Source: a virus. Taken from it: 33,839 nt of DNA. The stretch covers positions 1-33,839 of the IMG/VR virus record IMGVR_UViG_3300023178_002564. One strand, given 5' to 3'. Positions 11,401-33,839 of the stretch are shown here, in pieces; position 1 is the stretch's first letter; each line of letters begins with the position of its first letter. A program made the position numbers and the translations under genes. The notes beneath the pieces were generated by a model. The model was not told the origin of the DNA and did no database searches. It saw nothing but the letters and a program-made list of their open reading frames with translations.

Positions 11401-12326
11401 GCAAAAAGTTCAAAGTAATTGACTATGATATTATCTATCTAAGTTACGATGAGCCAAATGCAGAAAAAAATTACGCAGATTTGTGTAGCAAAGTTCCGTG
11501 GGCAAAACGTGTACATGGTGTTAAAGGAAGTGATGCTGCACATAAAGCCTGTGCAGAACTTTCAGAAACAGACAGGTTTGTTACTGTTGACGGTGACAAT
11601 CAAATCAATCCTGAATTCCTTGTACAAGAAATAGATTTTGAAGAACATGCTGATTTAGAACACAGTGTTATTAGCTGGTGTGGTAAGAATGTAATTAACG
11701 GTCTTATGTACGGCAACGGCGGACTTAAATGTTGGCCTAAAGAATATGTGTTAAACATGCGTACACATGAAAATGCTGATCCAGATAATCCACATGCACA
11801 AGTAGACTTTTGTTGGGATTTAAAATATATCCAACAAAACAGTTGTTATTCGTATGTATACAATAACGAGACACCGCAGCAAGCATGGAGAGCAGGATTC
11901 CGTGAGGGTGTTAAAATGGCACTTGATCAAGGTGTAAAACCTACACAAGAAGAATTCCTTAAAGGACACTGGAAAAATTTACATAGGTTGTGGATATGGC
12001 TTATGGTAGGTGCAGATGTCGATAACGGGCTATGGGCTATTTACGGAGCACGTCAGGGACTATACATGACAATGTGTACAGATTGGGATTATGTAAATGT
12101 ACGTGACTTTGAATACTTAAACGATATGTGGGAACAAGAAGTAAAATTTATCAAACCAATGTACTTGCACGATGAAGTAAGCGATCTAGGTGAAAAGCTC
12201 ATGCAAGAATTACAAGTGCCTATTGCAGAAAATCCTTTAGATGCACAGCAAAGTAAGTTCTTTAAAACAGTTTATCAAAATCCTAGTCGCAACCCTAACC
12301 AACAATTTGTAATTGATCCAGAATGA
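11397..12326 (+). CDS. GT-A-like glycosyltransferase family protein
   Basis: This encodes 309 residues. The N-terminal half has the start of a GT-A fold: YDIIYLSYDEPNAEKNYADL at about 9-28, PWAKRVHGVKG, a helix, then FVTVDGDNQI with D-G-D at 65-67 as the expected metal-binding motif. Downstream are NGLMYGNGGLKCWP, a Trp-rich helical part (NLHRLWIWLMVGAD), and GARQGLYM. The same domain forms the last quarter of the protein at 25228, where the signature recurs as YDIVFISYNEPNADENWEDL plus VDGDAKI. The family is frequent in marine phages, but no donor is known to me. It overlaps the upstream and downstream genes by 4 nt each and has a GAGG site upstream. Confidence 0.68.
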   Translation: MSKKFKVIDYDIIYLSYDEPNAEKNYADLCSKVPWAKRVHGVKGSDAAHKACAELSETDRFVTVDGDNQINPEFLVQEIDFEEHADLEHSVISWCGKNVINGLMYGNGGLKCWPKEYVLNMRTHENADPDNPHAQVDFCWDLKYIQQNSCYSYVYNNETPQQAWRAGFREGVKMALDQGVKPTQEEFLKGHWKNLHRLWIWLMVGADVDNGLWAIYGARQGLYMTMCTDWDYVNVRDFEYLNDMWEQEVKFIKPMYLHDEVSDLGEKLMQELQVPIAENPLDAQQSKFFKTVYQNPSRNPNQQFVIDPE

Positions 12327-13696
12327 GTAATGAAAAAAGAATTGAGGTACTTGAACAAAAGCGCAAACAGATTAATTCTGTAAGTTGCTCTTTCTGCACG
12401 GCTAAATGGCTTCAAACTACACTCTATTTACAAAACGGTTACAATCATAGTTGTCACCACCCTGCTCCGCATAAAATTCCTATTAGCGAAATTATGGGCA
12501 ATCCACATGCACTGCATAATAGCAAGCACAAAAAGAAACAACGTGAAATGATGCTTAAAGGTGAGCGTCCTAGTGAATGCGATTATTGCTGGAACATAGA
12601 AGATTTAGATAAAAACTACTTTAGTGATAGACATTATAAAACTGCTGACTACTGGGCTTGGGATAGATTTGATGAAATAGCAACCAGTGATCCTAAAGAA
12701 AATACCTATCCTAGTTACTTAGAAGTTAGTTTTTCAAATGCGTGTAATTTTGCGTGTGCATACTGCTCTCCAGAAATTAGCAGCAAGTGGATGGAAGATA
12801 TAAAGCAACACGGACAGTATCCTGTTTTGCACGGATCGCACAATTTAGATTACTTAAAAAAGACACAAAAGTTTCCTTATTTAAACAGCGAAGTAAACCC
12901 TTATGTAAAAGCATTTTGGAAATGGTTTCCAGATGCATTACCGCATTTAAAAGTATTACGATTAACAGGCGGTGAACCTACAATGAGCAAGGAAACATGG
13001 CGTTTGCTAGACATGCTTATTGAGAATCCTATGCCTGAATTGGAAGTTGCTATTAACACTAACCTTTGTGTGCCAAACAATCTTATTGATAAGTTAATTG
13101 AAAAAATTAACATGCTAAAAGATAAAGTAAAAAAGATAGATGTGTATACAAGTTTAGAAAGCGTAGGTGCGCAAGCCGAATATGCAAGAGACGGACTAGA
13201 TTATAAGCAATGGATTGCTAATGTAGAACAGGTACTTGACGAAACTGAAAGTACAGTTGCAATTATGACAACAGTAAACATTTTAAGTTTGCCTAGTTTT
13301 GAAAAATTTATAGATCTTGTAATGGACTTTCGTAAAAAATATAACAAAGCATTTGAATATAATCGTATTCCGATAAGCATTAATTACTTGCGTTGGCCTC
13401 CACACTTACAGTGTACATTGCTAGACAAGGAAGATCGTTTGCTTTATGCAAATGCAATTGAATCTACTTGCGAAGGTTGGTTGAAATATCATAGTCCAGA
13501 TAAGTATGCAAGATTGTATCTTGAAGAATGGGATCAAATAAAAAGATTTTGCGATTATCTACGTAATACAGATCCAGCTATAGAGCATAGAAAAGATTTT
13601 GTTGCATACATACAAGCATACGATAAAAGACGTAGAAAAAACTTTAAAAAAGTTTTTGAAGATTACAGAGAGATTATAGAGGACTGGAATGCCTAA
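12323..13696 (+). CDS. Radical SAM protein, N-terminal auxiliary cluster, CHHP variant
   Basis: This encodes 457 residues. The radical-SAM core begins near residue 130, with C141-x3-C145-x2-C148 for the SAM-binding [4Fe-4S] cluster and T-GGEP at 215-219, the SAM amino-group motif. Before it, residues 20-95 hold an auxiliary Cys set: C22, C25, C44 (in CHHPAPHKIP), C86 and C89 (CDYCW). This resembles a SPASM/Twitch half-domain placed before the core rather than after it, as in the family NCBI calls twitch domain-containing radical SAM proteins. Here the usual PCC is replaced by SCHHP. It forms a tandem pair with the next gene (8-nt overlap). Members of this superfamily cleave SAM to a 5'-deoxyadenosyl radical; the substrate is unknown. 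Confidence 0.88.
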   Translation: MSNEKRIEVLEQKRKQINSVSCSFCTAKWLQTTLYLQNGYNHSCHHPAPHKIPISEIMGNPHALHNSKHKKKQREMMLKGERPSECDYCWNIEDLDKNYFSDRHYKTADYWAWDRFDEIATSDPKENTYPSYLEVSFSNACNFACAYCSPEISSKWMEDIKQHGQYPVLHGSHNLDYLKKTQKFPYLNSEVNPYVKAFWKWFPDALPHLKVLRLTGGEPTMSKETWRLLDMLIENPMPELEVAINTNLCVPNNLIDKLIEKINMLKDKVKKIDVYTSLESVGAQAEYARDGLDYKQWIANVEQVLDETESTVAIMTTVNILSLPSFEKFIDLVMDFRKKYNKAFEYNRIPISINYLRWPPHLQCTLLDKEDRLLYANAIESTCEGWLKYHSPDKYARLYLEEWDQIKRFCDYLRNTDPAIEHRKDFVAYIQAYDKRRRKNFKKVFEDYREIIEDWNA

Positions 13697-15134
13697 AAAA
13701 CCTGATGAAAGTTTAATCCAATACAGAGACCGAGTGATTAATTCAAAAAGTCCTAGTTTCTGCGGAGCAAAATGGTATAATGCTACTACATGGTTAGGCA
13801 GCGGCACAACCGCAAGTTGCCACCACCCTCCTGCACATAAAATTCCAGTAGAGGAAGTAGAAGCTGATTTTACAGCAATTCATAATACAAAGCATAAAAA
13901 AGAAATGCGCCGTCAGATGCAAGTCGGGCAGCGTCCAAGAGAATGTGAGTATTGCTGGAAAATGGAAGATATGGGCAAGGATGCTGTAAGTGACAGAGTT
14001 TTTAAAACAATTATATATGATGACGATGAGTTACAACGTGCTTACGATTTAAATTATACAGAAAGTGTTCATCTTAAAACATTTGAAATCGCATTTGATC
14101 GTACTTGTAATCTTGCATGTTCTTACTGCAATGCTAGTTTCAGTACTACTTGGGCAAAAGATATTAAAAAGCATGGCGAATACAAAAATCTTGTAAGTGA
14201 CGGTGCAGGAGCATTCCGTCAAGATGGTAGTTGGACACAGCCTTACAAAGATGACGAAGACAATCCTTACATTCAAGCGTTTTGGAAATGGTGGGATAAC
14301 GGACTAAGCAGTAGCTTAGAAGAATTGCGTATTACTGGTGGTGAACCTTTAATGAGTGGAAACACTTGGAAACTAATTGACTGGTTTGAATCGCAAAAGA
14401 CAAAAATGAGATTTGCTATAAACAGTAATTTAATTGCTAAAAAAGACATTATAGACAAACTTATTAACAAGTCTCAAGGAATGCATCACTTTGAAATTTA
14501 CACTAGTTGTGAAAGTGTGGGTAAGCAAGCTGAATATATTCGAGACGGTTTAGAATACGACTTATGGTTATCTAATGTTAAAAGAATACTAACAGAAGCA
14601 AATGCAAAGTTACATATTATGATGACAATAAACAGTTTATGTTTGTTTAGTATTACTGAGTTTTTAGACCAAGTGTATGAATTGAAAGAACTAACTGATA
14701 GTAAGTGGCCGACAGTAAGTTTAAACTTATTGAGATTTCCTAGTTTTCAATCTCCACTTGCATTGCCTAATCATATAAAAGATGAAATGCATAAAAAACT
14801 GTCAACATGGTATGAAGCAAATAAAGACAAAGAATTATGGCACGAGTTTGAACGTGCAAGCATAGAACGTCTTATAGACTATCTTGTAACAGTTGATGCT
14901 CCACATCGTAGAACTAGTAATCCTATTACACTTTGGAGAGACTTTAAAACATTTTATCAGCAGTACGATATCAGAAGAAATAAAAGTTTATATGTGTTTC
15001 CTAAGTTACTTACAGACTGGGTAGAAAGCATACCAGACACCGATGTTGAAATACAAGAACTTGCAGATAAAGAAGGATGGGTACTAAAACCTGATCCTAA
15101 AAATATAGACGAACCTTTGGCAACTTATGACTAA
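13689..15134 (+). CDS. Radical SAM protein, N-terminal auxiliary cluster, CHHP variant, second copy
   Basis: This encodes 481 residues and is the tandem paralogue of the preceding gene. Auxiliary Cys fall at the same positions (C25, C44 in CHHPPAHKIP, C86, C89 in CEYCW). The core motif is C140-x3-C144-x2-C147, with GGEP at 217-220. The region between the core Cys and GGEP is longer than in the short N-Twitch proteins nearby (15127, 17005) and contains conserved Trp-rich HGEY and FWKWW segments, also seen in the upstream copy. GAGG precedes the ATG. Duplication followed by divergence suggests two steps on related substrates or a heterodimer. The reaction is not known. Confidence 0.87.
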   Translation: MPKKPDESLIQYRDRVINSKSPSFCGAKWYNATTWLGSGTTASCHHPPAHKIPVEEVEADFTAIHNTKHKKEMRRQMQVGQRPRECEYCWKMEDMGKDAVSDRVFKTIIYDDDELQRAYDLNYTESVHLKTFEIAFDRTCNLACSYCNASFSTTWAKDIKKHGEYKNLVSDGAGAFRQDGSWTQPYKDDEDNPYIQAFWKWWDNGLSSSLEELRITGGEPLMSGNTWKLIDWFESQKTKMRFAINSNLIAKKDIIDKLINKSQGMHHFEIYTSCESVGKQAEYIRDGLEYDLWLSNVKRILTEANAKLHIMMTINSLCLFSITEFLDQVYELKELTDSKWPTVSLNLLRFPSFQSPLALPNHIKDEMHKKLSTWYEANKDKELWHEFERASIERLIDYLVTVDAPHRRTSNPITLWRDFKTFYQQYDIRRNKSLYVFPKLLTDWVESIPDTDVEIQELADKEGWVLKPDPKNIDEPLATYD

Positions 15135-16314
15135 TAACGTATGTATAGCACCCTGGATACATTTACACACATGGCCTAACAACAATGTGTATCCTTGTTG
15201 TCTGACAGCAATGGAAGACACTGTTGGTAATTTAAACGATAATACCTTAGCTGAAATTTGGAACAATGAAGCAATGAAAAAATTGCGCACACAGTTCCTT
15301 AACAATGAACAACCAGAAAGTTGTAAGCGTTGTTTTATTAACGAAAAGCACGGCGGTACTAGTTTACGTAAACATATGAACGAAACGTTTGACCGTCACA
15401 TGCATCTACTAGATAAAACTAATCCAGATGGCACGTTAGATGAACTAAGCATACATTACTGGGATTTTAGATTTTCTAATATCTGTAATATGCGTTGTAG
15501 AAGTTGTGGTCCACAATTGAGTACAGGCTGGTATGAAGACCAAAAAAAATTATGGGGACAACTTCCTAATGATTTACCTGACCCTGGCAAAAACATTAAT
15601 ATGTGGCAACAGATAGAACCGTTGTTTGATAAAGTAGAAGATATTTATTTTGCAGGAGGCGAGCCCTTGCTTATGGAAGAGCATTATCGTATACTTAATA
15701 AGTTAGACGAAATGCAAAAGTACGATACAATTATACGCTACAATACTAACTTTAGTCAGATGAAATATAAAAAATTAGATGTTTTAGAAATATGGCCAAA
15801 GTTTGATAGAGTTGTTGTAGGAGCAAGTATTGACGGATTCGGAGAACGTGCAGAATATATTCGTAAAGGTACAGACTGGAATAAAATAGTTGCCAACAGA
15901 GAAAAAATGAAGCAACAAGCACCAGGTGTTGAGTTTTTTGTAAATTTTACAGCAAGTGTACAAAATGCATATCACATTGTTGACTTTTATGAATGGGCAA
16001 TGGAAGCAAAGTTCATAGAAAATGCAGGAGATTTTCATATTAATATTGTGCAGCATCCTGAACACCTAAGTTTACAAATTTTACCTGACTATATGAAAAA
16101 AGAACTTACAGAAAAATATGAAGCAATAGCAGAAAAATCCAAAGCATGGGGAAATGAAAGATACAGTCATTGGTTGTCTTTAGCAAAATATATGAATGAT
16201 GCTGATACTTCACATCTTATACCCGAGTTCAAAAAGAATATCGAAATGGTTGATAGAATTAGAAATGAAGATTTTGCAACTACGTTTCCAGAATTACAGG
16301 ATTTAGTAAAATGA
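15127..16314 (+). CDS. Radical SAM protein with N-terminal Twitch-like domain
   Basis: This encodes 395 residues. The N-terminus is a clear auxiliary-cluster half-domain: C6-IAPW, NVYPCC (C24, C25), GNL, LAEIWNNEAMKKLRTQF, and C66-x2-C69. This order of landmarks (CxxPW, PCC, GN, IW, CxxC) is that of a C-terminal SPASM/Twitch domain but placed before the core. The radical-SAM core follows with C120-x3-C124-x2-C127 and AGGEP, with GGEP at 177-180. Later FDRVVVGASIDGFGERAEYIR carries the strand seen in many SPASM-family enzymes. It overlaps the upstream gene by 8 nt and the next by an ATGA. The substrate is unknown. Confidence 0.88.
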   Translation: MTNNVCIAPWIHLHTWPNNNVYPCCLTAMEDTVGNLNDNTLAEIWNNEAMKKLRTQFLNNEQPESCKRCFINEKHGGTSLRKHMNETFDRHMHLLDKTNPDGTLDELSIHYWDFRFSNICNMRCRSCGPQLSTGWYEDQKKLWGQLPNDLPDPGKNINMWQQIEPLFDKVEDIYFAGGEPLLMEEHYRILNKLDEMQKYDTIIRYNTNFSQMKYKKLDVLEIWPKFDRVVVGASIDGFGERAEYIRKGTDWNKIVANREKMKQQAPGVEFFVNFTASVQNAYHIVDFYEWAMEAKFIENAGDFHINIVQHPEHLSLQILPDYMKKELTEKYEAIAEKSKAWGNERYSHWLSLAKYMNDADTSHLIPEFKKNIEMVDRIRNEDFATTFPELQDLVK

Positions 16315-17012
16315 TTCTTACTATTGGGTGTAGTTGGACATACGGAACAGGCGTAGAACCAGATGAAACATTTTCTGCGCATTTGCAAAATAAATTAGAT
16401 ACTCGTGTTATCAACGGAGGACATCCTGGTATTGATATTCCTTATGCTATTTGGAGTGCATATAGACTTTTTAATAAGTTTAAACCAGAAATTGTTTTAT
16501 TCCAAGTTACTACACTTGATAGATTAACCTATAGTGTTAGCGGTAGAGATAATTTTTTAGATAATAAAACACACAGTTTAGAAGAACAGCCTATTTGGAC
16601 TACAGAAGGCGAACATATTCGTGTAAGAGGCATAACTGAAGACGTTTTAGAACGTATTACACTAGGCAGTTATAAAGAAGCTCTAGTGAAAACTGATTCT
16701 AAAAGTGTTACCAATAAGTACCTATACGAACAAAATATTTTTAGTGACGTAAAAAATGATATGATACATGCTCAGTTAGATATGCTGAGAAGTTATATAC
16801 TTTCTAAAGGCGCAATGATTGTATTTTATCCTTGGGTACCTTTAGGAAAAGACATACACAAAAGAAGCATTGTTAACATAAGGAAAGATGCTGTTATAAA
16901 ATATTTAGATCAAGAGCATTTTATAGACAACGGATATCATATTTCTAACGAAGGACACAAGTTAGTTGCAGATGAGTATCTTTATCCGATGATAAGGAGA
17001 GCATTTGAGTAA
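16311..17012 (+). CDS. SGNH/GDSL-like hydrolase family protein
   Basis: This encodes 233 residues with SGNH-fold landmarks: block I G-C-S8-W-T-Y-G at 6-12 (nucleophile Ser), block II G-rich NGGHPG at 35-40, a strand IVLFQVTTLDR where block III would lie, and a C-terminal DNGYHISNEGH (206-216), matching the catalytic Asp/His block V. Enzymes of this fold remove or transfer acyl groups on sugars and other small substrates. There is no signal peptide, so it acts in the cytoplasm. It sits between two radical-SAM genes with 4-nt and 8-nt overlaps. A sugar O-acyl esterase or transferase role fits the locus, but catalysis is not shown by sequence alone. Confidence 0.7.
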   Translation: MILTIGCSWTYGTGVEPDETFSAHLQNKLDTRVINGGHPGIDIPYAIWSAYRLFNKFKPEIVLFQVTTLDRLTYSVSGRDNFLDNKTHSLEEQPIWTTEGEHIRVRGITEDVLERITLGSYKEALVKTDSKSVTNKYLYEQNIFSDVKNDMIHAQLDMLRSYILSKGAMIVFYPWVPLGKDIHKRSIVNIRKDAVIKYLDQEHFIDNGYHISNEGHKLVADEYLYPMIRRAFE

Positions 17013-18129
17013 TATTTGTATAAATCCTTGGATACATGTCGAAGCTGACGCCACTGGCAGAGCAAAACCGTGCTGTCTTTATAACAGTAATAAAGCAGCA
17101 GGTCATTTTAGTACAGATTCATTATCGCAAATTTGGATTAGCGAAGAAATGACAACACTTCGTAACGAATTTCTTGCAGGTAAAAAGCCTGAAGGGTGTA
17201 AACAATGTTGGGATAATGAATCTAGAGGAATACGAAGTAAACGTCAAGCTGACAATGAACGTTTTCAACACCTTTCTAATAGGATAGGTAATAAACTAGG
17301 AGTTCCTGTTTACTTTGATTTAAAATTAGGAACAGTTTGTAATTTAAAATGCAGAATTTGTAGCAGTTTTAGTAGCTTCAAATGGGCAGAAGACGAAAAA
17401 CTATTATACGGCGAAGTACTAAATCCTAATCTAAGAAGTTATTGGATTGAAGACGACAGTAGAATTTGGAGAGATCTTGCAAAAATTGTAGAACACATTG
17501 AATGGCTTGACTTTACAGGCGGCGAGCCTTTGTTAATTAAAAAACATTTTGAATTATTGGAAAAATGTGTTGAACAAGGTCATGCACATAAAATAAGTTT
17601 GCACTATAACACAAACACTACAATCAAACCTACCCAACGTATGCTAGACATTTGGAAAGAATTTAAATGGGTAGAACTTATGTTTAGTGTAGACGGAGTC
17701 GGAAGTCATTTTGAATACCAGAGACATCCAGCTGTATGGAAAGAAGCAGAAGAAAACTTGCGTTTTGTAAATGAACACAAGTTTTTACACACAAGTATTT
17801 GTCATACTGTTAATATTTTTAATTTATTATATCTGCCTGAGTTTGAAGAGTGGTTTAATACTTTAGATTTGCTAGAAGACAGATTATTTTTAAATGCATT
17901 ACACAGTCCAGCTCATTATAACGTTCAAGCAATACCAGAATATGCACATGAAGCTGTAAAGAAAAAGTTAACCAAAGAAAAATACCAACCTTTTGTAACA
18001 CAAATGTCTAATTATAACGGCTCGATAGAAAATTTCTTTAAATATACGCATATATTAGACAAACATAGAAAAGAGAGCTTTCAACAAGTGTTTCCTGAGC
18101 TCGATGCATTATTAAGAGGAGGATACTAG
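17005..18129 (+). CDS. Radical SAM protein with N-terminal Twitch-like domain (TTG start)
   Basis: This encodes 374 residues. The auxiliary half-domain is at the N-terminus: C5-INPW, KPCC (C23, C24), GHF, QIWISEEM, and C65-x2-C68. The radical-SAM core has C112-x3-C116-x2-C119 and TGGEP, with GGEP at 172-175. It is a close relative of the protein at 15127, separated from it by an SGNH gene. The start is TTG at 17005, chosen because AAGGAG lies 5 nt upstream and the conserved CxxPW element would be lost with any later start. It overlaps its upstream neighbour by 8 nt and ends one base into the next start. The substrate is unknown. Confidence 0.87.
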   Translation: MSNICINPWIHVEADATGRAKPCCLYNSNKAAGHFSTDSLSQIWISEEMTTLRNEFLAGKKPEGCKQCWDNESRGIRSKRQADNERFQHLSNRIGNKLGVPVYFDLKLGTVCNLKCRICSSFSSFKWAEDEKLLYGEVLNPNLRSYWIEDDSRIWRDLAKIVEHIEWLDFTGGEPLLIKKHFELLEKCVEQGHAHKISLHYNTNTTIKPTQRMLDIWKEFKWVELMFSVDGVGSHFEYQRHPAVWKEAEENLRFVNEHKFLHTSICHTVNIFNLLYLPEFEEWFNTLDLLEDRLFLNALHSPAHYNVQAIPEYAHEAVKKKLTKEKYQPFVTQMSNYNGSIENFFKYTHILDKHRKESFQQVFPELDALLRGGY

Positions 18130-19175
18130 TGTCTACACAAGGTCAAGATTTTTTTGATGAAACATGGTTTGACGATCACGTTGTAATTTTGTTTGATGCA
18201 CCTATGGAAAGTCTAGAGTGGGATCTTAAATTTAGTGAAGATGAACTACAAGAATGGATGCTTTCTAATCCTAGCGGAGATAAGCACATTGCTCAGAGTG
18301 TAGTTGAAGACTTTTCTGTAAGATCATTGATTACGCCTATGGGCGGAGAAAATAAAGTTGTACATCATTTTGAAAAAATTATGTGGCTTGTACAAAGTTA
18401 CTGTCGTGGAGGCTGGGCAAATCCTGTTAAAGCAGTAAATCATATGGACAATGGCAAATATCTAGTTCATCCAGGAACTAACAGATGTGTAGCAGGTAAG
18501 TTTTTAGGATGTAAAGTAATGCCTTTGATGCTTTCTGTACACAAAGGACAAAAAACATATAAAGAATTAGAAGAGATTGGTGTTGCTATAGAAAGTGAAC
18601 AAGATTTAAGAAAATGTCTTTGGAGCAAGTACGATATTGTATTTCGTACCGAAATTGAAGAAAAACTTTATGTAAACGGTGAATTCACAGGTGAGATGAC
18701 CAAAGATTTTACATATGAATTTTTGGGTCCTGATGCTTGGCCTAGTAAAACACTACCTACAAACTACGAAGGCTTTACTCAAACTAAATTGAATCAATGG
18801 AGTGATTTAGTATTTAGAAGTTTGCCAATGGTAGTAAATAATCCAAATAACGTTAACCTACACACTGATATGTTAAACTTCCAGTTTTATGATAGAACAA
18901 AAGAGTTGTTTAATAGTTTTGAAATTTTACAAAGTAATTTACAATTATCAGAGCTACCTAAAAAATGTGCATACAGCGGATTAAGCATACATTTAGAAAA
19001 AGAATTTTTAGGTGATATATTTGAGTTATTGTTATTTGTAGATCCACAAAATGCTGTAACATGCACCAAAGACAGGAAAATTATAATAGTAAATAATGAA
19101 CATCCTGCAAATCGGAATGGAATAAGTTGGGATAATCCGTTAATTATTCCAGATAGTTATGTCGACAAGTTTTAA
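18129..19175 (+). CDS. Hypothetical protein with a possible ParB-like segment (GTG start)
   Basis: This encodes 348 residues, soluble. The GTG start overlaps the previous TAG by one base and has an AGAGGAGGA purine run just upstream. Residues 97-135 read as ANPVKAVNHMDNGKYLVHPG, then TNRCVAGKFLGCKVMPL. This resembles the ParB/Srx core pattern (hydrophobic strand, Gly turn, G-x-x-R-x-x-A, then a strand with conserved Pro), a fold that can bind nucleotides. The resemblance is weak and the rest, with an acidic N-terminus and a C-terminal LFVDPQNAVTCTKDRKIIIV segment, is unassigned. It lies between two radical-SAM genes and overlaps the downstream one by 17 nt. It may be a regulatory or nucleotide-dependent partner. 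Confidence 0.55.
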   Translation: MSTQGQDFFDETWFDDHVVILFDAPMESLEWDLKFSEDELQEWMLSNPSGDKHIAQSVVEDFSVRSLITPMGGENKVVHHFEKIMWLVQSYCRGGWANPVKAVNHMDNGKYLVHPGTNRCVAGKFLGCKVMPLMLSVHKGQKTYKELEEIGVAIESEQDLRKCLWSKYDIVFRTEIEEKLYVNGEFTGEMTKDFTYEFLGPDAWPSKTLPTNYEGFTQTKLNQWSDLVFRSLPMVVNNPNNVNLHTDMLNFQFYDRTKELFNSFEILQSNLQLSELPKKCAYSGLSIHLEKEFLGDIFELLLFVDPQNAVTCTKDRKIIIVNNEHPANRNGISWDNPLIIPDSYVDKF

Positions 19176-20016
19176 TGTACAAGATCATATTAGTTATAGG
19201 AACAAAAGATACCTCAAAGCAAACATAGGTAATCCTTTATTGCTGGGTTTAGGTGTTGTAGAAATAAATCCTACAGAATTATGCAATCGTACTTGTAGTT
19301 TTTGTCCTCGAAGTGACCCTAAAGTTTATCCTAATAGAAATTTACAAATGGATATAGGTATTGCAGAAAAAATAGTAGCAGACTTGTCTTCTGCAAATTA
19401 TACCGGCGATATTCATATTACAGGCTTTGGCGAACCTACTCTTAATCCCAACATATTTGAACTAATAAAAATATTCAGCAAGTTTTACACAGAAACTATC
19501 ACCAACGGAGATAGGCTCTTGTCAGGACAAATTACACACCAGCAGTTTAGTGATGCTGGATTAAGCATGTTAATTGTAGATTGCTATGATGGTGACGAAC
19601 AATATTATAAAATGCAAGACTTGTTAAAAGATTGTAAAATTAATTATAGGATACGCAATCATCATGATACTGGAGAGCCAGAATTAATTAAACAATACAA
19701 CTATAACAACAGAGGCGGCCTAGTGCAAGAAGCAGAAACACTCTTTCGTCCTTGTTGGCTTCCTTTTTATAAAGCCTTTGTAGACTGGGACGGTGAAGTA
19801 AGATTGTGCTGCAATGATTGGTCAAGAAGACAAGAACCGTTCGGTAATATAAAGACTAAAAATTTTGCTGATATCTGGATGTCACAAAAATTTATCGATG
19901 TAAGAAATAAATTAAACAAGGGCGAGCGATCAAAATTAAGTGCTTGTAAAAATTGTAATACAAGTGGAACGCAAAACGGATTTGAAAGTGTAAGTTTATG
20001 GCAGAAAATTTTTTAG
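19159..20016 (+). CDS. Radical SAM protein with C-terminal SPASM domain
   Basis: This encodes 285 residues with the standard order of domains. The core Cys are C42-x3-C46-x2-C49 (CNRTCSFC) and TGFGEPT at 88-94 replaces GGEP, as in SPASM-type enzymes. The C-terminus carries an auxiliary-cluster domain: C199 (RPCW), a strand FVDWDGEVRLCCND with C217 and C218, FGN, IWMSQKF, and C263-x2-C266. This is the usual arrangement for SPASM/Twitch enzymes such as peptide-modifying or carbohydrate-modifying ones, in contrast to the four genes upstream with the domain first. The overlaps are 17 nt upstream and 19 nt downstream, so it is coupled to both neighbours. The substrate is unknown. Confidence 0.87.
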   Translation: MSTSFNVQDHISYRNKRYLKANIGNPLLLGLGVVEINPTELCNRTCSFCPRSDPKVYPNRNLQMDIGIAEKIVADLSSANYTGDIHITGFGEPTLNPNIFELIKIFSKFYTETITNGDRLLSGQITHQQFSDAGLSMLIVDCYDGDEQYYKMQDLLKDCKINYRIRNHHDTGEPELIKQYNYNNRGGLVQEAETLFRPCWLPFYKAFVDWDGEVRLCCNDWSRRQEPFGNIKTKNFADIWMSQKFIDVRNKLNKGERSKLSACKNCNTSGTQNGFESVSLWQKIF

Positions 20017-26859: not shown

Positions 26860-27733
26860 ACTATTAGATAGATTTGAACTACTGTATCCAACAGTTAGCA
26901 ATTTTAGTGACTTGCGCAGATCTTATATTGACAAAGATTTACACAGTATTTTTAGGTTGCTTGATCCTAAGGTATGGGATAATACTTTAAGTGAACAATA
27001 CATAACAGATTTACGGAAATTTTTACTAGAAGATAATATTTGGAAAATGTGGCCTTTACTAGAAATAATGGAACCAGGCAGTTTTAGTAAAGCATTTAAA
27101 AGTTTATTTGTAAATAAAATAGAATTTGACAAAGATTGTTTTAGTAGAGGACAGTTACAAAGTAAAATTTGGCTTGTAAAAACTTTACAACAGCTACGCA
27201 AAGAAAATGAAATAAAAAGTTTAGGTACAGTTTTTATTTGTGCAGGTTGGTATGCAACACTTGCTAATATGCTTTTCAGCACAGCAAGACTTGATGTACA
27301 AAAAATAAGAAGTTTTGATATAGATCCTAGTTGTGTCGAAATTGCAGAAATCTTTAACAAAGATTGGTTCAAACAAGAATGGACCTTTAAGGCTCTTACA
27401 GCGGATATACATGATATAGATTACGAAGAACACGAATGGACTTTTTGGAGTAACAAAAACAACAGACAAAGTTACCCAATTGTAGATAAGCCTGATACAA
27501 TTATTAACACAAGTTGTGAACACATTATAGATTTTGACAGTTGGTTTAGAAAAATACCAGAAGGCAAATTAGTTATTTTACAAAGTAATGATTTTGTTGA
27601 AGTTGAAGAACATGTAAATTGTGTTAAAGATAGTTCGCATTTTGCTGAAATGGCACCTTTAAGTAAAGTATTGTTTACTGGAGAATTGCCGTTAGAAAAG
27701 TACACAAGGTTTATGAGAATTGGAATTAAGTAA
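26843..27733 (+). CDS. Class I SAM-dependent methyltransferase-like protein
   Basis: This encodes 296 residues from the chosen ATG at 26843; AGGAGA lies 7 nt upstream, whereas a TTG 24 nt earlier has no such site. A helical N-terminal part (1-125) precedes a Rossmann-like region: motif I TVFICAGWYATLANMLF at 129-145, an acidic strand end SFDIDP at 157-162, TADIHDIDYE near 187-195, and INTSCEHIIDFDSWF at 221-235, where motif IV would lie, then LVILQSNDF. These fit a class I methyltransferase with a degenerate glycine loop. It overlaps the upstream gene by 17 nt and the next by 14 nt. The target is unknown: glycan, protein and small-molecule targets are all possible. Confidence 0.62.
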   Translation: MLKPHELLDRFELLYPTVSNFSDLRRSYIDKDLHSIFRLLDPKVWDNTLSEQYITDLRKFLLEDNIWKMWPLLEIMEPGSFSKAFKSLFVNKIEFDKDCFSRGQLQSKIWLVKTLQQLRKENEIKSLGTVFICAGWYATLANMLFSTARLDVQKIRSFDIDPSCVEIAEIFNKDWFKQEWTFKALTADIHDIDYEEHEWTFWSNKNNRQSYPIVDKPDTIINTSCEHIIDFDSWFRKIPEGKLVILQSNDFVEVEEHVNCVKDSSHFAEMAPLSKVLFTGELPLEKYTRFMRIGIK

Positions 27734-27953
27734 TTTAAGTTTAAGGCAATTACAGACTGAAAGTGCTAGAGCCTTGAGTACTATGGAAGCAACGAACAAT
27801 AACATATACCAGTTTAATAAACAAGCTCATCACAATAGTCAGAATTGGTATGTTGCAGTTATTGAATGGTATATAAAACAGTACGGTGATTTACCGAGCA
27901 AGATTGGCCCGGGCAAAGACATAAGGATAATATTAGATGAAACATCTAACTAA
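27720..27953 (+). CDS. Small hypothetical protein before a radical-SAM gene
   Basis: This is a 77-residue frame starting with TTG at 27720, overlapping the methyltransferase by 14 nt and the next radical-SAM gene by 17 nt. An ATG at 27783 would give a 57-residue product. Residues 1-30 are polar and helical in appearance, followed by NSQNWYVAVIEWYIKQYGDLP and GPGKDIRIILDE. There is no Cys and no obvious leader/core division of a modified-peptide precursor. It is probably real because of its tight coupling on both sides. It may be an accessory protein of the radical-SAM enzyme; a substrate role is speculative. Confidence 0.5.
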   Translation: MELSNLSLRQLQTESARALSTMEATNNNIYQFNKQAHHNSQNWYVAVIEWYIKQYGDLPSKIGPGKDIRIILDETSN

Positions 27954-28878
27954 CGATAGACCAGACAGTATGCACGCCGAGTGGGTGATGAGTAATGTCT
28001 GTAACTATACTTGTAATTACTGTGACCCAAAGTTGTACGGCGGCACTTCAGGCTGGCCTGACCTACAAAAAAGTTTAGACTTTTGGGCATATATTCATAA
28101 AGAAGTTAATCCTAATGCAAAAATGCTTACTCTTAGTGGCGGCGAGCCTACAATATGGCCGCACTTGAGTGAGTTTTTTAATAAACTAGATCCTAGTTAC
28201 AAAAAGGCAATAGTAACAAACGGTAGTAGAACCTTGCGCTGGTGGAAAAAGTTTATCGAAAACACCGAGATTGAGCAAATTGCAATTAGTGTACATTTAG
28301 AATTTGCTAATATTGATCATATAAAAGAAGTTGTAAAAATTATTGGTCCTTATTGTAGAGTTACTTGTTTAATAATGTTAGATGAAAATAGAGTTCAGCA
28401 AGGTAGACATTTTGCAGAAGAACTAGCAAAAGAAGACTTATATTGTAAAATTGTCATAAAGCCTGTGACTCGTAGACATTATTCAAATAACGAGTCTCAA
28501 GACTATGATAAAGAAACATTAGACTGGATGGCTAATTTTGATTATAATAAAAATGCACCTATTATGAAAACAAGGGATCGTACAACTGCTGTTAACGTAG
28601 TAATTGACGGCGAAGAAAAACCAGTTTTTTATATGTACGAAATGATATCGAAAAATATGCATCAGTTCACTGGATGGAAGTGTTATGCAGGCAAGCATAG
28701 ATTAGTTGTTTGGCATGACGGTAATGTATACGGTGCTCAGTGTCCTACAGCAAAAAGGAATCTTTTAGGTAACGTTGCAAACGGCAAATTAGATAAAAAG
28801 ATTGAGCCATTAATTTGCGATACACAATTTTGTTCGTGTGTTCCAGATATAAGAATTCCTAAAGAAAAGGTTGAATAG
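27937..28878 (+). CDS. Radical SAM protein with C-terminal Cys cluster
   Basis: This encodes 313 residues. The core has C22-x3-C26-x2-C29 (CNYTCNYC) and SGGEPT, with GGEP at 68-71. The C-terminal part holds a Cys set consistent with an auxiliary cluster: C249 (WKCYAGKH), a short strand pair WHDGNVYGAQC with C269, LLGNV at 276-280, then C294, C299 and C301. The order C, G-x-V-x-x-x-C, GN, CxxxxCxC resembles a reduced SPASM/Twitch domain. AGGA lies upstream of the ATG and the gene overlaps the small protein by 17 nt. It is not obviously QueE or a ribonucleotide activase, given the extra Cys domain. The substrate is unknown. Confidence 0.82.
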   Translation: MKHLTNDRPDSMHAEWVMSNVCNYTCNYCDPKLYGGTSGWPDLQKSLDFWAYIHKEVNPNAKMLTLSGGEPTIWPHLSEFFNKLDPSYKKAIVTNGSRTLRWWKKFIENTEIEQIAISVHLEFANIDHIKEVVKIIGPYCRVTCLIMLDENRVQQGRHFAEELAKEDLYCKIVIKPVTRRHYSNNESQDYDKETLDWMANFDYNKNAPIMKTRDRTTAVNVVIDGEEKPVFYMYEMISKNMHQFTGWKCYAGKHRLVVWHDGNVYGAQCPTAKRNLLGNVANGKLDKKIEPLICDTQFCSCVPDIRIPKEKVE

Positions 28879-28884
28879 AACAAA

Positions 28885-29961
28885 ATGTATAGCTATCAGG
28901 ACATAAAGACAATACACCTTGAAGTTACACAAAACTGTCAAGCAAACTGTCCTATGTGTGATCGTAATATGAACGGTGAAGGGATAAATCCGCATATTGA
29001 TTTGAGTGAACTTACACTTGAAGATTGTAAACAAATTTTCAAGCCGGAATTTATTTCACAGCTCAACACAATGTATATGTGCGGCAACTTAGGTGATCCT
29101 ATTGTAGCACGAGATACATTAGAAATATTCAAATACTTTAGAGAGCATAACCCTAACATATGGTTAAGCATGAATACAAACGCAGGAGCAAAAGATGAAG
29201 CGTGGTGGAGTGAATTGGCCAAAGTCTTTGGCAGGATGGGTGCTGTTATTTTCAGCGTGGACGGTCTTAGGGACACTAATCACATATACAGGCAAGGTGT
29301 TGTCTGGGACAATGTAGAACGTAATATGCAAGCGTTTATAGACGCTGGCGGCAGAGCACGATGGGACTTCTTGATATTTGAACACAATCAGCATCAAGTA
29401 AAAGAAGCCGAGGCCCTAGCATGGGAATGGGGCTGCGAAAAATTTATAAAAAAGAAAACTGGAAGGTTTATTGATGCAAAGTCAAACAAAAAAGAAAAGC
29501 ACCAAGCCAAAGACCGTAAAGGCAAAGATACAGCAGAGCTCAAGAAGCCAGAAGAAAAATACCAAAACAAAGCACTTACCAAGCAAGAGGCGATTATCGA
29601 GAAATACGGCAGTATGGACGCATATTATGACGAAGCTCCTATTGTTTGTAAAGTTAAAAAAGAAAACAGTCTCTTCATCACAGCAGAAGGATTAGCATTA
29701 CCTTGTTGTTGGACTGCTGGTCGTATGTACAAGTGGTGGCATAAAAATCCTTACCAAGAACAGATATGGAGATTTATCGATCTTAGTGGAGGCAAAGAAA
29801 AACTAGATGCACGTAACGGACTAGAAAAAGTTTTTGAAACTGGTATATTTGAACGTATTGAAAAAAGTTGGAGTATAAGTTCGTGTAGTGCTGGCAAGTT
29901 GAAAGTTTGTGCAATGAAGTGTGGAGCAGAGTTCGATCCGTTTACAGCACAATTTAGTTAG
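28885..29961 (+). CDS. Radical SAM protein, GNLGDP variant, with Lys-rich insertion
   Basis: This encodes 358 residues. The core has C18-x3-C22-x2-C25 (CQANCPMC); the second motif is C-GNLGDP at 66-72 in place of GGEP, as in its paralogue at 30532. An unusual Lys/Glu/Ala-rich stretch fills residues about 188-245 (KSNKKEKHQAKDRKGKDTAEL is its core). The auxiliary Cys are C255, C274-C275 (LPCCW), C334, C342 and C346. The order C, PCC, then CxxxC near the end is a C-terminal SPASM-like layout. It lies 6 nt after the preceding radical-SAM gene and 8 nt before an oxygenase-like gene. The substrate is unknown. Confidence 0.82.
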   Translation: MYSYQDIKTIHLEVTQNCQANCPMCDRNMNGEGINPHIDLSELTLEDCKQIFKPEFISQLNTMYMCGNLGDPIVARDTLEIFKYFREHNPNIWLSMNTNAGAKDEAWWSELAKVFGRMGAVIFSVDGLRDTNHIYRQGVVWDNVERNMQAFIDAGGRARWDFLIFEHNQHQVKEAEALAWEWGCEKFIKKKTGRFIDAKSNKKEKHQAKDRKGKDTAELKKPEEKYQNKALTKQEAIIEKYGSMDAYYDEAPIVCKVKKENSLFITAEGLALPCCWTAGRMYKWWHKNPYQEQIWRFIDLSGGKEKLDARNGLEKVFETGIFERIEKSWSISSCSAGKLKVCAMKCGAEFDPFTAQFS

Positions 29962-29969: not shown

Positions 29970-30542
29970 ATGACATTTACAATATTAGAAAATTTTCCGG
30001 AAGATTTATTACAAAAATTAAAAGATATTTGGAACGAAGGCGAATGGTACAAAGAGATAGAAGCTAGTCCTGGAGCAATGTGGCATCATTGTCTAAGATC
30101 GAGCCATCCTATTTTTGAAGAGTTTCCTGAAGAGACTAGAACTGTAGAGTTTTATAGTAATCCTCCTCACACAAAAAACGGACCACACCTTGATAGAGGA
30201 CGTTGGAGTGCAATGAATATACCTATTGATATTGATCACGACAACAGCTATTTTATGACTGGTAAAACGCATTTATTAAAAGTTTATGAAAGAAAAACTT
30301 TGCCAGTTGGATACACTCACAAGGTTACTTCACAATCAGGTCCTATAGGGTTTTTCTTTGAAGAAGAAGAAAAATTTGATTACTATAATTTAGAAAAACC
30401 TGTATTGTTTAGCACAAAAACTCCACACGGTTTTTACAACAACAGCGACAGAAGCAGAGTGTTATGCAGTGTAACATTTGATCTTACATATGAACAGATG
30501 ATGAATATTCTTCCTCCTGAGTGGTTTGGTGATGTTCTATAA
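29970..30542 (+). CDS. 2OG-Fe(II) oxygenase-like protein
   Basis: This encodes 190 residues, soluble. Residues 73-75 give H-L-D (GPHLDRGRW), the first part of the iron-binding facial triad; H153 (TPHGFYNN) would be the distal His, 78 residues later; and R161 or R163 (DRSRVLCSV) is placed to bind 2-oxoglutarate. The intervening sequence forms plausible double-stranded beta-helix strands (NIPIDI, PVLFSTK, VLCSVTF). Members of this class hydroxylate proteins, nucleic acids or small molecules using 2-oxoglutarate and O2. AGGAG precedes the ATG by 5 nt. It is flanked by two paralogous radical-SAM genes, overlapping the second by 11 nt. The target is not known. Confidence 0.68.
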   Translation: MTFTILENFPEDLLQKLKDIWNEGEWYKEIEASPGAMWHHCLRSSHPIFEEFPEETRTVEFYSNPPHTKNGPHLDRGRWSAMNIPIDIDHDNSYFMTGKTHLLKVYERKTLPVGYTHKVTSQSGPIGFFFEEEEKFDYYNLEKPVLFSTKTPHGFYNNSDRSRVLCSVTFDLTYEQMMNILPPEWFGDVL

Positions 30543-31530
30543 ACTACCTTTAAGTCATATACACATAGAGCTTACTACAAAGTGTAATGCTGCTTGTCCT
30601 ATGTGTATGCGCAATCTAAACGGAGATATAGATCATCCAAATTTAATTAAAACAGACTTTGATATATCTTGGTTTGAAAATGTTGATTTGCCTGCAAATA
30701 AATTGACTTTATGTGGTAACTACGGAGATCCTTGTGTGCATCCTAATTTGCATTTAGTGATTGAAAAATGGTTAGAGCGTTATAATAAGCCTATAAAGAT
30801 GATGACCAACGGTGGCGCTAGGAAACCAGAGTACTGGAAAACTATTGCTGAGATGGCGAAAGATAAAATGGATGTAGTGTTTGGCATAGACGGACTAGCA
30901 GACACAAATCATCTATACCGGAGACACGTACAGTGGGATAAACTAATCGAAAATGCAAAAGCATTTATAGATGCCGGTGGAAAAGCAACTTGGAAATTTA
31001 TTATTTTTGAACATAATAAACACCAAGTTGAAGAAGCAGCAGCACTTGCAAAACAATTAGGTTTTGAAAAATTTGAAAAAATAAAAACTAATAGATTTAG
31101 AAAAGATTATTTGCCTGTTGTTGATCGTAACAACAATGAAATTTATAGATTGTATGAAGCTAAAGTAGACGAAACAGGATTTACAGCAAAAAATCCAAAT
31201 AGAATACAAACTACAAAAGAATGGACAGGTGAAATAAACTGTTATGCAAAAAAAGAAAGTAGTGTTTATATTGCTGCTGACGGAAGAATATATCCCTGTT
31301 GTAATACCGGATATCATTACAATACAGATCTTGTAACAAATAAAGAAATATTTGAATTACAAGAAAATTGTCCTACACCTAATATTCAAGATATGTTACT
31401 GTCAGAAGCTACAGAAAGTGAATTTTTTAAAACAGTTGAAAATAAATGGTCAAGTACACCTCTACAGAAATGTAAAATAACTTGTGGTGTGTTGCGTGAC
31501 AACTTGCACAAAGTTGAAATACTTACTTAA
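30532..31530 (+). CDS. Radical SAM protein, GNYGDP variant
   Basis: This encodes 332 residues from the ATG at 30532, preferred over a TTG 6 nt earlier; neither has a strong Shine-Dalgarno site. The core has C18-x3-C22-x2-C25 (CNAACPMC) and CGNYGDP at 61-67. It is paralogous to the protein at 28885 over SVDGLRDTNHIYR/GIDGLADTNHLYR, IFEHN.HQV.EA and the C-terminus, but lacks the Lys-rich block. The auxiliary Cys are C237, C256-C257 (IYPCC), C314 and C318, with C280 as a further candidate. Its end converges on the minus-strand gene, overlapping by 8 nt. It closes the operon of 24 same-strand genes. The substrate is unknown. Confidence 0.83.
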   Translation: MFYKLPLSHIHIELTTKCNAACPMCMRNLNGDIDHPNLIKTDFDISWFENVDLPANKLTLCGNYGDPCVHPNLHLVIEKWLERYNKPIKMMTNGGARKPEYWKTIAEMAKDKMDVVFGIDGLADTNHLYRRHVQWDKLIENAKAFIDAGGKATWKFIIFEHNKHQVEEAAALAKQLGFEKFEKIKTNRFRKDYLPVVDRNNNEIYRLYEAKVDETGFTAKNPNRIQTTKEWTGEINCYAKKESSVYIAADGRIYPCCNTGYHYNTDLVTNKEIFELQENCPTPNIQDMLLSEATESEFFKTVENKWSSTPLQKCKITCGVLRDNLHKVEILT

Positions 31531-32509
31531 TTTTTTTCTTTAAATAATTCTTCCAAAATTTTAATCCGTGTCTTTTATAAAGTTGGTTATGCAATCTATC
31601 CTCGTAAGTTTCATGCCACATTTTTTCAAATTGGTCTTGCTCTAGCATACTAATTCTTTTTATTTCTTTTGCAATAAGTTTTGCTTTTAATATAAAGTCG
31701 TCTTCATCATCGTAAGAATGATCGATCCATTTATCAAATGTTTTAAATCCGTATTCACGTAAATATTTTATACTATGCTTTTGCCCTAATATAAAAAATA
31801 ACTGTCCTGCTCTAATTGCTTTGTAGGTTTTTTCACTTAAAAATGTTCCACCGTCTCTTTGCCACATTGTTTCTGTAACTACGTCTATTGCTCGATCTTG
31901 TCTAGCTTCATAACTTGCAGTATACGCACCGTTTTCTCCTATTGGAATATCTATAGGGGGATTAAATTGTTTGCTTATCTTATAATATAAATTTTTATCT
32001 TCAAATAATTCTTCGGTTGGTGGAAATACTCTTCCGGTAGGTTCTTTAAGATGATGAGGAAAAATTATATCTCCGTGTGCTATATCTAATTTTGCAATTT
32101 CAGAAAGCAATATTATTCTATGAAGTCGAGGTCTTCTCACCCAATATTGCCATCTAAAGTTTGGAGTTTTTTTAGTTGTAGGTAAAGGAACTGTTGCGTC
32201 TACTACTACTTGCCAGTGCGGGAACCATACCCATTTATCAGAAGATTGTAAATTTCCAGTAACAGGTATAACATCTTTATGATTGTTTATGAAATTGTCA
32301 AACAGATCTTCCCACCCGTCGAGTGCTGCATAAAATACATAGTGATTATATTGGCCAGTTTTTTTAACAGCATCTAATGTTTCTGATAAGATTTTTTCTA
32401 TTAGCTTAATATCTTTTATGTAATCTAAATTTGTACCAGTTAACGGAGTAATATGATCTAATACAAAAACTTTTTTAGGAAACATGTTTTCACGTCTAAT
32501 GTCTATCAT
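31523..32509 (-). CDS. GT10-like phage protein on the minus strand
   Basis: This encodes 328 residues and is the only minus-strand gene in the window. Family landmarks are WQYWVRRPRLHRIILLSEIA (about 121-140), VVTETMW with Glu213, FLSEKTYKAIRAGQLFFILG at 223-242, and LREYGFKTFDKWIDHSYD. It is therefore a fourth member of the set at 19998, 21781 and 23090. A start at M9 (32485) is also possible; neither Met has a clear Shine-Dalgarno site. Its 3' end overlaps the operon's last gene by 8 nt in convergent orientation, and its 5' end faces a radical-SAM gene across 24 bp. The reversed orientation suggests later insertion or a separate expression time. Confidence 0.68.
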   Translation of the reverse strand: MIDIRRENMFPKKVFVLDHITPLTGTNLDYIKDIKLIEKILSETLDAVKKTGQYNHYVFYAALDGWEDLFDNFINNHKDVIPVTGNLQSSDKWVWFPHWQVVVDATVPLPTTKKTPNFRWQYWVRRPRLHRIILLSEIAKLDIAHGDIIFPHHLKEPTGRVFPPTEELFEDKNLYYKISKQFNPPIDIPIGENGAYTASYEARQDRAIDVVTETMWQRDGGTFLSEKTYKAIRAGQLFFILGQKHSIKYLREYGFKTFDKWIDHSYDDEDDFILKAKLIAKEIKRISMLEQDQFEKMWHETYEDRLHNQLYKRHGLKFWKNYLKKKIK

Positions 32510-32515
32510 ACGTAT

Positions 32516-32527
32516 ACTTATATAAGT
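32516..32527. promoter_or_regulatory. Perfect 12-bp palindrome between divergent genes
   Basis: ACTTATATAAGT is a perfect inverted repeat centred in the 24-bp gap between the minus-strand GT10-like gene and the plus-strand radical-SAM gene. The gap also holds TATACT (32513-32518) as a possible -10 box for the plus strand, though no good -35 box is present. The palindrome may be an operator or simply an AT-rich chance repeat that gives -10-like sequences on both strands. Confidence 0.35.
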
Positions 32528-32533
32528 AGTAGT

Positions 32534-33839
32534 ATGACTGATAAAATCTCACCTACATTTTGTGCTTTGCCTTGGCTTCATCTAAGTAGTAGACCTGATG
32601 GCAAAATGCGTACCTGTTGTACATCAAATGCAAGTAGTGTCCAAGATCCTGACTCTAATAAAAAAGTAGGAGGTGGTGAAGTTGGCGTTGTCAAAAATGA
32701 TGACGGTATACCTGCTAATTTTAATCATACTTCTTTAGAAGAAGCATGGAACAGTGGCTACATGCGTAACGTCCGTAAAATGATGTTGCGTGGAGAAAAA
32801 CCTGCAAGTTGTTTAAAGTGCTACAAAGAAGAAGAAGCAGGGCATTTAAGTAAACGCAACTGGGAATCGGAGTATTGGGGTAATAGATACGACCTACAGC
32901 AGTTAGTAGACGAAACTAAAGAAGACGGTAGTATTCCTCCTAAGATACGCTACATCGACCTTAGAATGGGTACAAAGTGCCAATTAGCATGTGTTATGTG
33001 TAGTCCACACGACAGTAGTGGTTGGATAAAAGACTGGCAAGCAATTACTCCTAAAATGCAAAATGAGAAATTGATAAACACAAGCCAGTGGGACAACAAA
33101 GGACGCAATCACGGCGCAAGTTATAATTGGCATAAAAACAATCCTCGCTTTTGGAAAGAACTTATGGAACAAGTTCCTCATATGTATCAGTTATACTTTG
33201 CCGGCGGCGAAAGTTTAGTTATTGACGAGCATTATGATTTGCTTGAAGAATGTATACGACAAGGATATGCAAAGAAAATAGAATTGCGTTATAACAGTAA
33301 TGCAGTAGAATGGCGTGATGATTTATTTGATCTCTGGGCAGAATTTAAGCGTGTGAGATTTCATTATAGTGTAGATGCACTAGGACCACAAAACGATTAC
33401 ATACGCTATCCTAGTCAATGGGACCACCAAGTAGACCAAATGTGGAAGTTAGACGCAACTACTGACAATGTAGAAGTAACTACCGCAACAACAATAATGG
33501 CTCTTAATATAGGATACATACCAGAGTTTATACAATGGAAAGTTGAACAAGGTTTTAGAAAGTGGAACAAATGGCCTTTAGGTGCAGGAGGTATAAACAT
33601 GCATTTTGCATATTGGCCACCACAATTAAACGTAAAAGTACTACCGCAAGATGTAAAAAGAGAAATCACGGACAAATATGAAAATCATTTTTATCCTTGG
33701 GTAAAAGAAAACTGGACAAAATTTACAGGTGTTCAAGAAGCAGGTATTACCCAAGAACAGTTTTTAAATGCTCCTTACGGACTGAAACGTTATCAGGGGC
33801 TAATTAAATTTATGAACGCAGAAGATTGGAGTGCAAGGA
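32534..33839 (+). CDS. Radical SAM protein with N-terminal Twitch-like domain (partial, 3' end missing)
   Basis: An open frame from ATG at 32534 runs off the right edge with no stop, giving 435 residues so far. The N-terminus has the auxiliary half-domain: C10-ALPW, MRTCC (C28, C29), LEEAWNSGYM, and C93-x2-C96. The radical-SAM core has C149-x3-C153-x2-C156 (CQLACVMC) and AGGES, with GGES at 224-227 instead of GGEP. Between PCC-like and IW-like elements there is a Gly/Asp-rich insertion of about 30 residues not seen in the proteins at 15127 and 17005. No clear Shine-Dalgarno site precedes the ATG. It is divergent from the minus-strand gene, so it probably heads another transcription unit continuing past the window. 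Confidence 0.85.
   Translation, partial: MTDKISPTFCALPWLHLSSRPDGKMRTCCTSNASSVQDPDSNKKVGGGEVGVVKNDDGIPANFNHTSLEEAWNSGYMRNVRKMMLRGEKPASCLKCYKEEEAGHLSKRNWESEYWGNRYDLQQLVDETKEDGSIPPKIRYIDLRMGTKCQLACVMCSPHDSSGWIKDWQAITPKMQNEKLINTSQWDNKGRNHGASYNWHKNNPRFWKELMEQVPHMYQLYFAGGESLVIDEHYDLLEECIRQGYAKKIELRYNSNAVEWRDDLFDLWAEFKRVRFHYSVDALGPQNDYIRYPSQWDHQVDQMWKLDATTDNVEVTTATTIMALNIGYIPEFIQWKVEQGFRKWNKWPLGAGGINMHFAYWPPQLNVKVLPQDVKREITDKYENHFYPWVKENWTKFTGVQEAGITQEQFLNAPYGLKRYQGLIKFMNAEDWSAR

Follow-up and report, generated by a model that had tools for sequence, protein, structure and literature searches.

Dense sets of radical S-adenosylmethionine (rSAM) genes have been described in several T4-related bacteriophages. 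The Campylobacter phages CP220 and CPt10 (Firehammervirus), reported in 2010, carry 11 and 12 rSAM genes, respectively, with a five-gene exchangeable cluster (PMC2853527). In 2017 the T4-like genome TARA_ERS488813_N000010 (183 kb) was found to contain 12 rSAM genes and an A-type Fe-S carrier (PMC5332604), and in 2020 rSAM cassettes were described beside tail fibres and glycosyltransferases in the host-recognition islands of pelagimyophages (PMC7029224). Here we describe a locus in IMG/VR record IMGVR_UViG_3300023178_002564, a linear viral record of 33.8 kb that was analysed over its full length of 33,839 nt (hereafter the window), in which nine rSAM genes are combined with tail-fibre and glycosyltransferase genes. 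The initial annotation of this sequence had taken phages to carry at most a few such enzymes as a rule; that dense phage rSAM sets lack a precedent is not supported by the published examples. We take the locus to be an rSAM- and glycosyltransferase-bearing host-recognition island, which is an already known kind; what appears to be new is its fixed core of rSAM enzymes with an N-terminal twitch domain (N_Twi). No description of an N_Twi/glycosyltransferase/fibre locus was found in the open-licence literature, which omits most subscription papers, and the fixed locus appears to be undescribed so far.

All nine rSAM genes are present within 12,323-33,839 at the positions first assigned to them, and all nine proteins contain the Cx3Cx2C motif. 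Gene calls are mechanical open reading frames (ORFs), and coordinates refer to the plus strand unless stated otherwise. Searching the window with PF04055 returned exactly nine places (E 3e-11 to 1.5e-5), six of which exceed the Pfam cut-off. The three below it, at 13689, 15127 and 32534, score above the curated cut-off of 170 bits of NF033640, the NCBIfam model for N_Twi rSAM enzymes, in which an Fe-S twitch domain precedes the catalytic core. Five genes belong to this family (303-417 bits): R1 (12323..13696, 329 bits, also matched by PF04055), R2 (13689..15134, 303 bits), R3 (15127..16314, 417 bits), R4 (17005..18129, 354 bits, with a TTG start codon) and R9 (32534..33838, 391 bits, truncated by the contig end). 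R5 (19159..20016), R6 (27937..28878), R7 (28885..29961) and R8 (30526..31530) give partial NF033640 matches of 22-48 bits, under the cut-off, and are predicted to be rSAM or rSAM/SPASM enzymes outside any named family. R5 and R8 match both PF04055 and PF13186 (SPASM); R6 lacks a twitch domain (PF04055 E 9e-9), and R7 has a SPASM-like C-terminus (PF04055 E 1e-8) and is a paralogue of R8, whose start at 30526 or 30532 is a choice between TTG and ATG alone. A literal GGEP occurs in five of the nine proteins (R1-R4 and R6), and divergent forms are found at this position in the other four (GFGEP in R5, CGNLGDP in R7, CGNYGDP in R8 and AGGES in R9), in agreement with the initial annotation. For the additional Cys cluster that it reported in every protein, there is model support for an Fe-S domain in seven, through the NF033640 N-terminal twitch (R1-R4 and R9) or SPASM (R3, R4, R5 and R8); R6 and R7 have only a visibly Cys-rich C-terminus.

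The same search applied to cultured phages found one rSAM gene in Pelagibacter phage HTVC008M (147 kb), five in KVP40 and 11 in CP220; Phosso and Atu_ph07, with genomes of 470-490 kb, have four each. Nine rSAM genes in 21.5 kb are therefore exceptional but not unique, and their density is not due to chance. The N_Twi profile is nearest to SkfB, which acts on a peptide and is the nearest solved relative, and its twitch part is nearest to BtrN, which acts on an aminocyclitol. Against the named SPASM peptide maturase families (PqqE, StsB, mycofactocin and others) all window rSAM proteins score far under the curated cut-offs. Viperin (pVip) and QueE identities were rejected, the former reaching at most 43 bits against the NF038283 cut-off of 180, the latter also remaining below cut-off, and both matching over the rSAM core only. 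It is very improbable that the locus performs nucleotide chemistry, be it the synthesis of viperin-like antiviral nucleotides, queuosine/7-deazaguanine or DNA-base modification: the weak core similarity to these models and the recurrence of PP-loop-like proteins in relatives would fit such a role, but the scores are far too low and a base-modification partner was not recognised in the window.

Relatives were retrieved through R1 alone, and the 76 R1 loci were clustered at 90% amino-acid identity into 30 lineages, because contigs of one sample may be the same virus. Denominators below count lineages with enough flank at the position in question. R2 lies directly after R1 in 25/26 lineages, and a gene of the GTc/GTd type (GTc, 11397..12326; GTd, 25228..26859) lies at most two genes upstream of R1 in 28/29. 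The GT8/glycogenin-like genes GTa (9104-9958) and GTb (9951-10793) are found upstream of R1 in 26/28 lineages, as is h1 (8761..9114), encoding a small conserved protein between the fibres and the enzymes, in 25/28. Fibre genes are present in 23 of the 27 lineages that could be assessed. The region from R1 to 9 kb beyond it holds a median of five rSAM genes (range 3-7), with GTd found in 16/21 lineages and R7/R8 and the methyltransferase gene MT (26819..27733) in 12/21 each. Loci retrieved through R7/R8 instead contain MT in 68/79 (adjoining R7/R8 in 53/79), N_Twi genes in 66/79 and R6 in 59/79; fibre genes are seen in 9/79, each of these loci covering at most 10 kb per side. In a phylogenetic tree support is 1.0 for the monophyly of R2 and 0.997 for a clade of R1 with one member per locus; the two are distinct, old paralogue clades. 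Comparison of the window with G008, a relative of about 80% identity, gave dN/dS values of 0.04-0.13 for R1, R3, R4, R5, R7 and R9; R2 was saturated in dS and yielded no value, and R6 and R8 were outside the comparison. Strong purifying selection thus acts on the compared rSAM pairs. The kept synteny rules out scattered acquisition of the rSAM genes: the cluster is one inherited locus, and co-occurrence over 30 lineages supports the proposal that it is a conserved multi-enzyme modification locus.

These data bear on the view that the rSAM genes are unrelated auxiliary metabolic genes, accumulated in a hypervariable region, whose Fe-S enzymes aid host metabolism. This is the published interpretation for CP220 (PMC2853527) and for the Tara T4-like genomes (PMC5332604), and A-type Fe-S carrier genes occur in 3/13 large relatives, including G018 and G020. 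However, the gene order is fixed across 30 lineages, the clades are paralogue-specific and purifying selection is strong, all of which argues against it; this explanation, already disfavoured by synteny, is in our judgement quite improbable. As a constant partner of the locus, the carrier was rejected on the same count of 3/13.

Near relatives of the window (G002, G004, G005, G006, G007 and G008) have 13-16 rSAM genes each, and other large contigs (G010, G011, G013, G014, G016 and G017) have 12 to 17. The richest were reached through the R7/R8 type: G020 (L196 contig, 342 kb) with 20 rSAM genes, and G018 (L121 contig, 179.6 kb) with 23, of which a stretch of about 36 kb holds at least 21. Fewer are seen in contigs that break off within the locus. 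Searches with HTVC008M proteins (tblastn) also showed tryptophan-halogenase-like regions, two in G005 and two in G008, as well as a pair of carbamoyltransferase-like regions in G005; these lie at about 53-58 kb and about 2-3.5 kb in G005 and at about 128-131 kb in G008.

The genes from 813 to 31530 form a tightly packed, same-strand array in which the largest gap is at most 54 nt and the majority of junctions overlap, an arrangement consistent with a single transcription unit. The array runs from tail-fibre proteins through glycosyltransferases to the rSAM enzymes, which are interspersed with a nucleotide-sugar dehydrogenase and the methyltransferase. The T4 late-promoter octamer TATAAATA occurs once in the window (1-33839), versus 5.8 expected occurrences; this scarcity of TATAAATA is no promoter evidence in either direction. 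Paralogue groups within 813-33839 (Tb/Tc/Td, Te/Tf, GTa/GTb, GTc/GTd, R1/R2, R7/R8 and F1-F4) make it look as though the array arose through repeated duplication.

Tail-fibre genes, with a collar domain and homology to PA5oct gp357-360, occupy the first 8.7 kb of the window. These PA5oct proteins were detected in virions by mass spectrometry. The block starts with Ta (197..802), a homologue of gp357 (E 7e-36) and of Phosso gene 293 (E 1e-73). It continues with Tb (813..2888), a gp358 homologue with a phage tail collar domain (PF07484, E 3e-15), and its tail-fibre-like paralogue Tc (2894..4960), which shares about 30% identity with Tb and Td in relatives. Td (5003..6505) is tail-fibre-like, matches Peptidase_G2 (E 2e-6) and gp359 (E 9e-22), and is homologous to Phosso gene 292, and the paralogues Te and Tf (6518..8706) are homologues of gp360. 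Contigs of syntenic relatives extend to 200 kb. One of these, G005 (200 kb), encodes a RaK2/PA5oct-type capsid protein with 67-71% identity to those of Phosso (about 71%), CBB, GAP32 and PA5oct; the window's own capsid gene lies outside the window. Given the homology of the fibre genes to PA5oct virion proteins and the capsid of this relative, the window is most likely a piece of a jumbo T4-related (RaK2/PA5oct-like) myophage genome. A search for near-identical DNA in cultured phages found none.

Comparison with the described phages places the locus as follows. CP220 and CPt10 are likewise T4-related with many rSAM genes, five of them clustered next to nucleotide-diphospho-sugar-transferase genes; some of these rSAM proteins are distantly related to R7/R8, and Td has one homologue among their tail proteins. 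They differ in having no N_Twi protein above the NF033640 cut-off, an amidinotransferase partner, another gene order and an rSAM cluster that is not directly behind fibre genes. The pelagimyophage cluster is also a T4-like island of tail fibres, GT8 glycosyltransferases and rSAM cassettes (PMC7029224), but it is described as hypervariable and HTVC008M has a single rSAM gene, whereas here the core order is fixed and the capsid protein of one relative points to RaK2/PA5oct-like phages. The pelagimyophage cluster lies between VrlC and gp14; for G005, the flank identified is the gp6 wedge region with a giant gene, after which the fibres and glycosyltransferases follow. TARA_ERS488813_N000010, with its 12 rSAM genes and A-type Fe-S carrier, is possibly the same kind of virus, a likeness drawn from its description only; it was published as an Fe-S gene count, without a description of a locus. 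A cultured parallel to the fibre arrangement is seen in Phosso, which infects Sinorhizobium, and Atu_ph07, which infects Agrobacterium. Both have homologues of the fibre genes Ta and Td followed by an rSAM group, but their four rSAM proteins include no N_Twi member above cut-off, there is no recognised glycosyltransferase, and they have a protein of their own with a CHxSC repeat tail (L273:18679-19599 in Phosso and L276:9001-9891 in Atu_ph07, 38% identical overall). The C-terminus CH[TS]SCHASCH[SN]SRSRR is kept in both. The rSAM proteins of the fibre-adjacent group resemble the peptide maturases PapB and DynA, below cut-offs, and the CHxSC protein, a possible virion protein next to rSAM/SPASM enzymes, looks as if it carried a core like that of a ribosomally synthesized and post-translationally modified peptide (RiPP).

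The enzymes encoded around the rSAM genes largely correspond to the initial guesses. GTa and GTb show profile similarity to glycogenin (GT8) structures (E 1e-5) confined to the N-terminal third, with no Pfam GT8 match, and certain members of their family match Mannosyl_trans3 (5e-5). The GTc model is confident as a GT-A transferase (AlphaFold2 pLDDT 89) of an unnamed family; its Foldseek matches are the S-glycosyltransferases SunS/ThuS, RmlT and the PBCV-1 capsid glycosyltransferase (E 3e-4 to 1e-3). GTd is longer, with a GTc-type domain at its end (33-38% identity within the GTc family), and itself has no Pfam or PDB support. MT is modelled with a class I SAM-methyltransferase-type fold (AlphaFold2 pLDDT 88.9; Foldseek matches NodS and MtNAS, E 1e-6). 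The gene at 24079..25206 encodes a nucleotide-sugar dehydrogenase of the UDP-glucose/GDP-mannose type (PF03721, E 2e-18; PF00984, E 6e-16). A search for relatives of GTc and h1 among 50,697 annotated phages found none.

The presence of three or four glycosyltransferases in the conserved core speaks against a RiPP-like product, by which we mean a secreted or intracellular peptide or small molecule that SPASM/twitch rSAM enzymes mature and that targets the host or competitors. Such a product would suit the SPASM and twitch domains, which peptide maturases typically have, and the kinship to SkfB. No precursor was found in a Cys/His-motif scan of called locus ORFs of at least 60 aa, which did not cover shorter ORFs or non-Cys precursors, and a transporter or protease was not recognised in the window. 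We regard this explanation as improbable.

We propose that the window contains a fibre-linked biosynthetic locus for glycosylation and radical tailoring whose most likely acceptor is the phage's own tail fibres, a reading to which we assign a probability of about 40%. We infer the glycan chemistry, the order of the steps and the acceptor as follows. The GT8-like and GT-A enzymes would put a sugar or short glycan on the acceptor, most likely the tail-fibre adhesin block encoded in the same array. The N_Twi and SPASM rSAM enzymes would then abstract hydrogen from unactivated C-H bonds of the glycan or of acceptor side chains, leading to dehydrogenation, epimerisation, deoxygenation or cross-linking, and the methyltransferase may add further tailoring. 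Fibre modification gains from Phosso and Atu_ph07, because their rSAM genes lie behind homologous fibre genes and around the CHxSC-tailed protein. Also in its favour, peptide S-glycosyltransferases and the glycosyltransferase of a viral capsid are among the best solved matches of GTc. Several observations weigh on the other side. The GTc structure matches have low TM values of about 0.2-0.3, a Cys/His-rich candidate acceptor motif was sought in the window's relatives and none was found, and among N_Twi enzymes none was found whose product is known, so that the substrate may be a sugar or a peptide. The fibre synteny could also reflect no more than the position of host recognition in T4-like genomes, which is known to be plastic.

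A further argument against fibres as an obligatory partner comes from bacteria. A genome scan was seeded with the R7/R8 alignment, the mixed N_Twi alignment being too diverse as a seed, and found Bdellovibrionota and other hosts. Two Bdellovibrionota metagenome-assembled genomes (MAGs), L214 (G021) and L220 (G022), contain 13 and 8 N_Twi proteins above the NF033640 cut-off, respectively, in clusters. Like the window, the Bdellovibrionota cassettes bring together R9-clade, R7-like, R6-like, GTd-like genes, in some cases with MT; in the Bdellovibrionales MAG contig L220, GTd-like, R9, R6 and R7 genes are grouped, and R9 of the window groups in one clade with the Bdellovibrionota cassette enzymes. 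Unlike the phage loci, the cassettes have no tail fibres, and the inspected one, in L220, lacks the R1/R2 pair. The flanks of L220, judged by their N-termini, read as ordinary bacterial genes (glutathione S-transferase-like, two ring-cleavage-type dioxygenase-like and UvrD-like helicase). Because similar cassettes occur in such surroundings without fibres, the fibre is not an obligatory partner. A binning error is possible for short MAG contigs and unlikely for the 936-kb contig of L214. Genes read by motif as SGNH-like, PP-loop-like and HTTM-like also lie among the N_Twi enzymes of L214.

The fibre-free cassettes in MAG chromosomes agree with a different target, the host surface, which is nearly as likely for the locus as the tail fibres. 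Here the enzymes would build and tailor a glycan that alters the lipopolysaccharide or capsule of the infected cell, either to block superinfection or to keep released progeny from sticking to debris. The pelagimyophage islands with fibres, glycosyltransferases and rSAM cassettes have been interpreted in this way (PMC7029224), and the nucleotide-sugar dehydrogenase of the array would be in keeping with it. However, the tight packing with fibre genes suggests that the enzymes are expressed along with virion parts, a stage that would be late for remodelling, and the scanned window proteins and inspected recurrent families yielded no flippase, polymerase or O-antigen ligase. Envelope remodelling is possible but, on this evidence, somewhat doubtful.

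The remaining genes of the array are less well defined. Two SGNH-like proteins (16311..17012, with a GCSWTYGTG motif, and 20969..21787) and a small oxygenase-like protein (29970..30542), also predicted at the outset, are assigned by motif reading alone; they had no match in a Pfam search at E 0.5 and gained no support from the PDB. The F family, a putative transferase family with a VTET..FITEKTYKPI.. motif, matches no named family and has no Pfam or PDB support; by family alignment it comprises F1 (19998..20978), its paralogues F2 and F3 (21781..24079) and F4 on the minus strand (31523..32509). Comparison with relatives shows that h2 (10786..11400) is frequent in the locus and that h3 (18129..19175) is conserved in the nearest relatives. 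Among recurrent families of the relatives, a 165-aa protein between GTc and R1 (L026:2303-2800) matches the malonyl-CoA decarboxylase C-terminal domain just above cut-off, and its family is found in ten loci. Another protein, present in 24 loci (e.g. L027:1676-2374, L029:14068-14742 and L082:17819-18469), has a CxxCFWCxER-type motif near its end and a weak PP-loop ATPase match; its gene overlaps an N_Twi rSAM gene in L027.

The relatives with 12-23 rSAM genes would hold the largest phage rSAM set among those found reported in the accessible literature, and in many jumbo phages the locus keeps its order next to the host-recognition genes. More tentatively than for the window itself, we suggest that jumbo phages have a dedicated rSAM and glycosyltransferase pathway by which their own tail-fibre adhesins receive a complex post-translational modification. 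This would be an undescribed form of virion maturation, of which Phosso and Atu_ph07 would be cultured small versions and the Bdellovibrionota cassettes a related form. Through the locus, the substrate of the N_Twi rSAM family would become accessible to study, and the culturable relatives Phosso and Atu_ph07 are suited to experiments. If the fibres are modified, part of the adhesin specificity would come from chemistry that the fibre sequence does not reveal, which bears on the prediction of host range.

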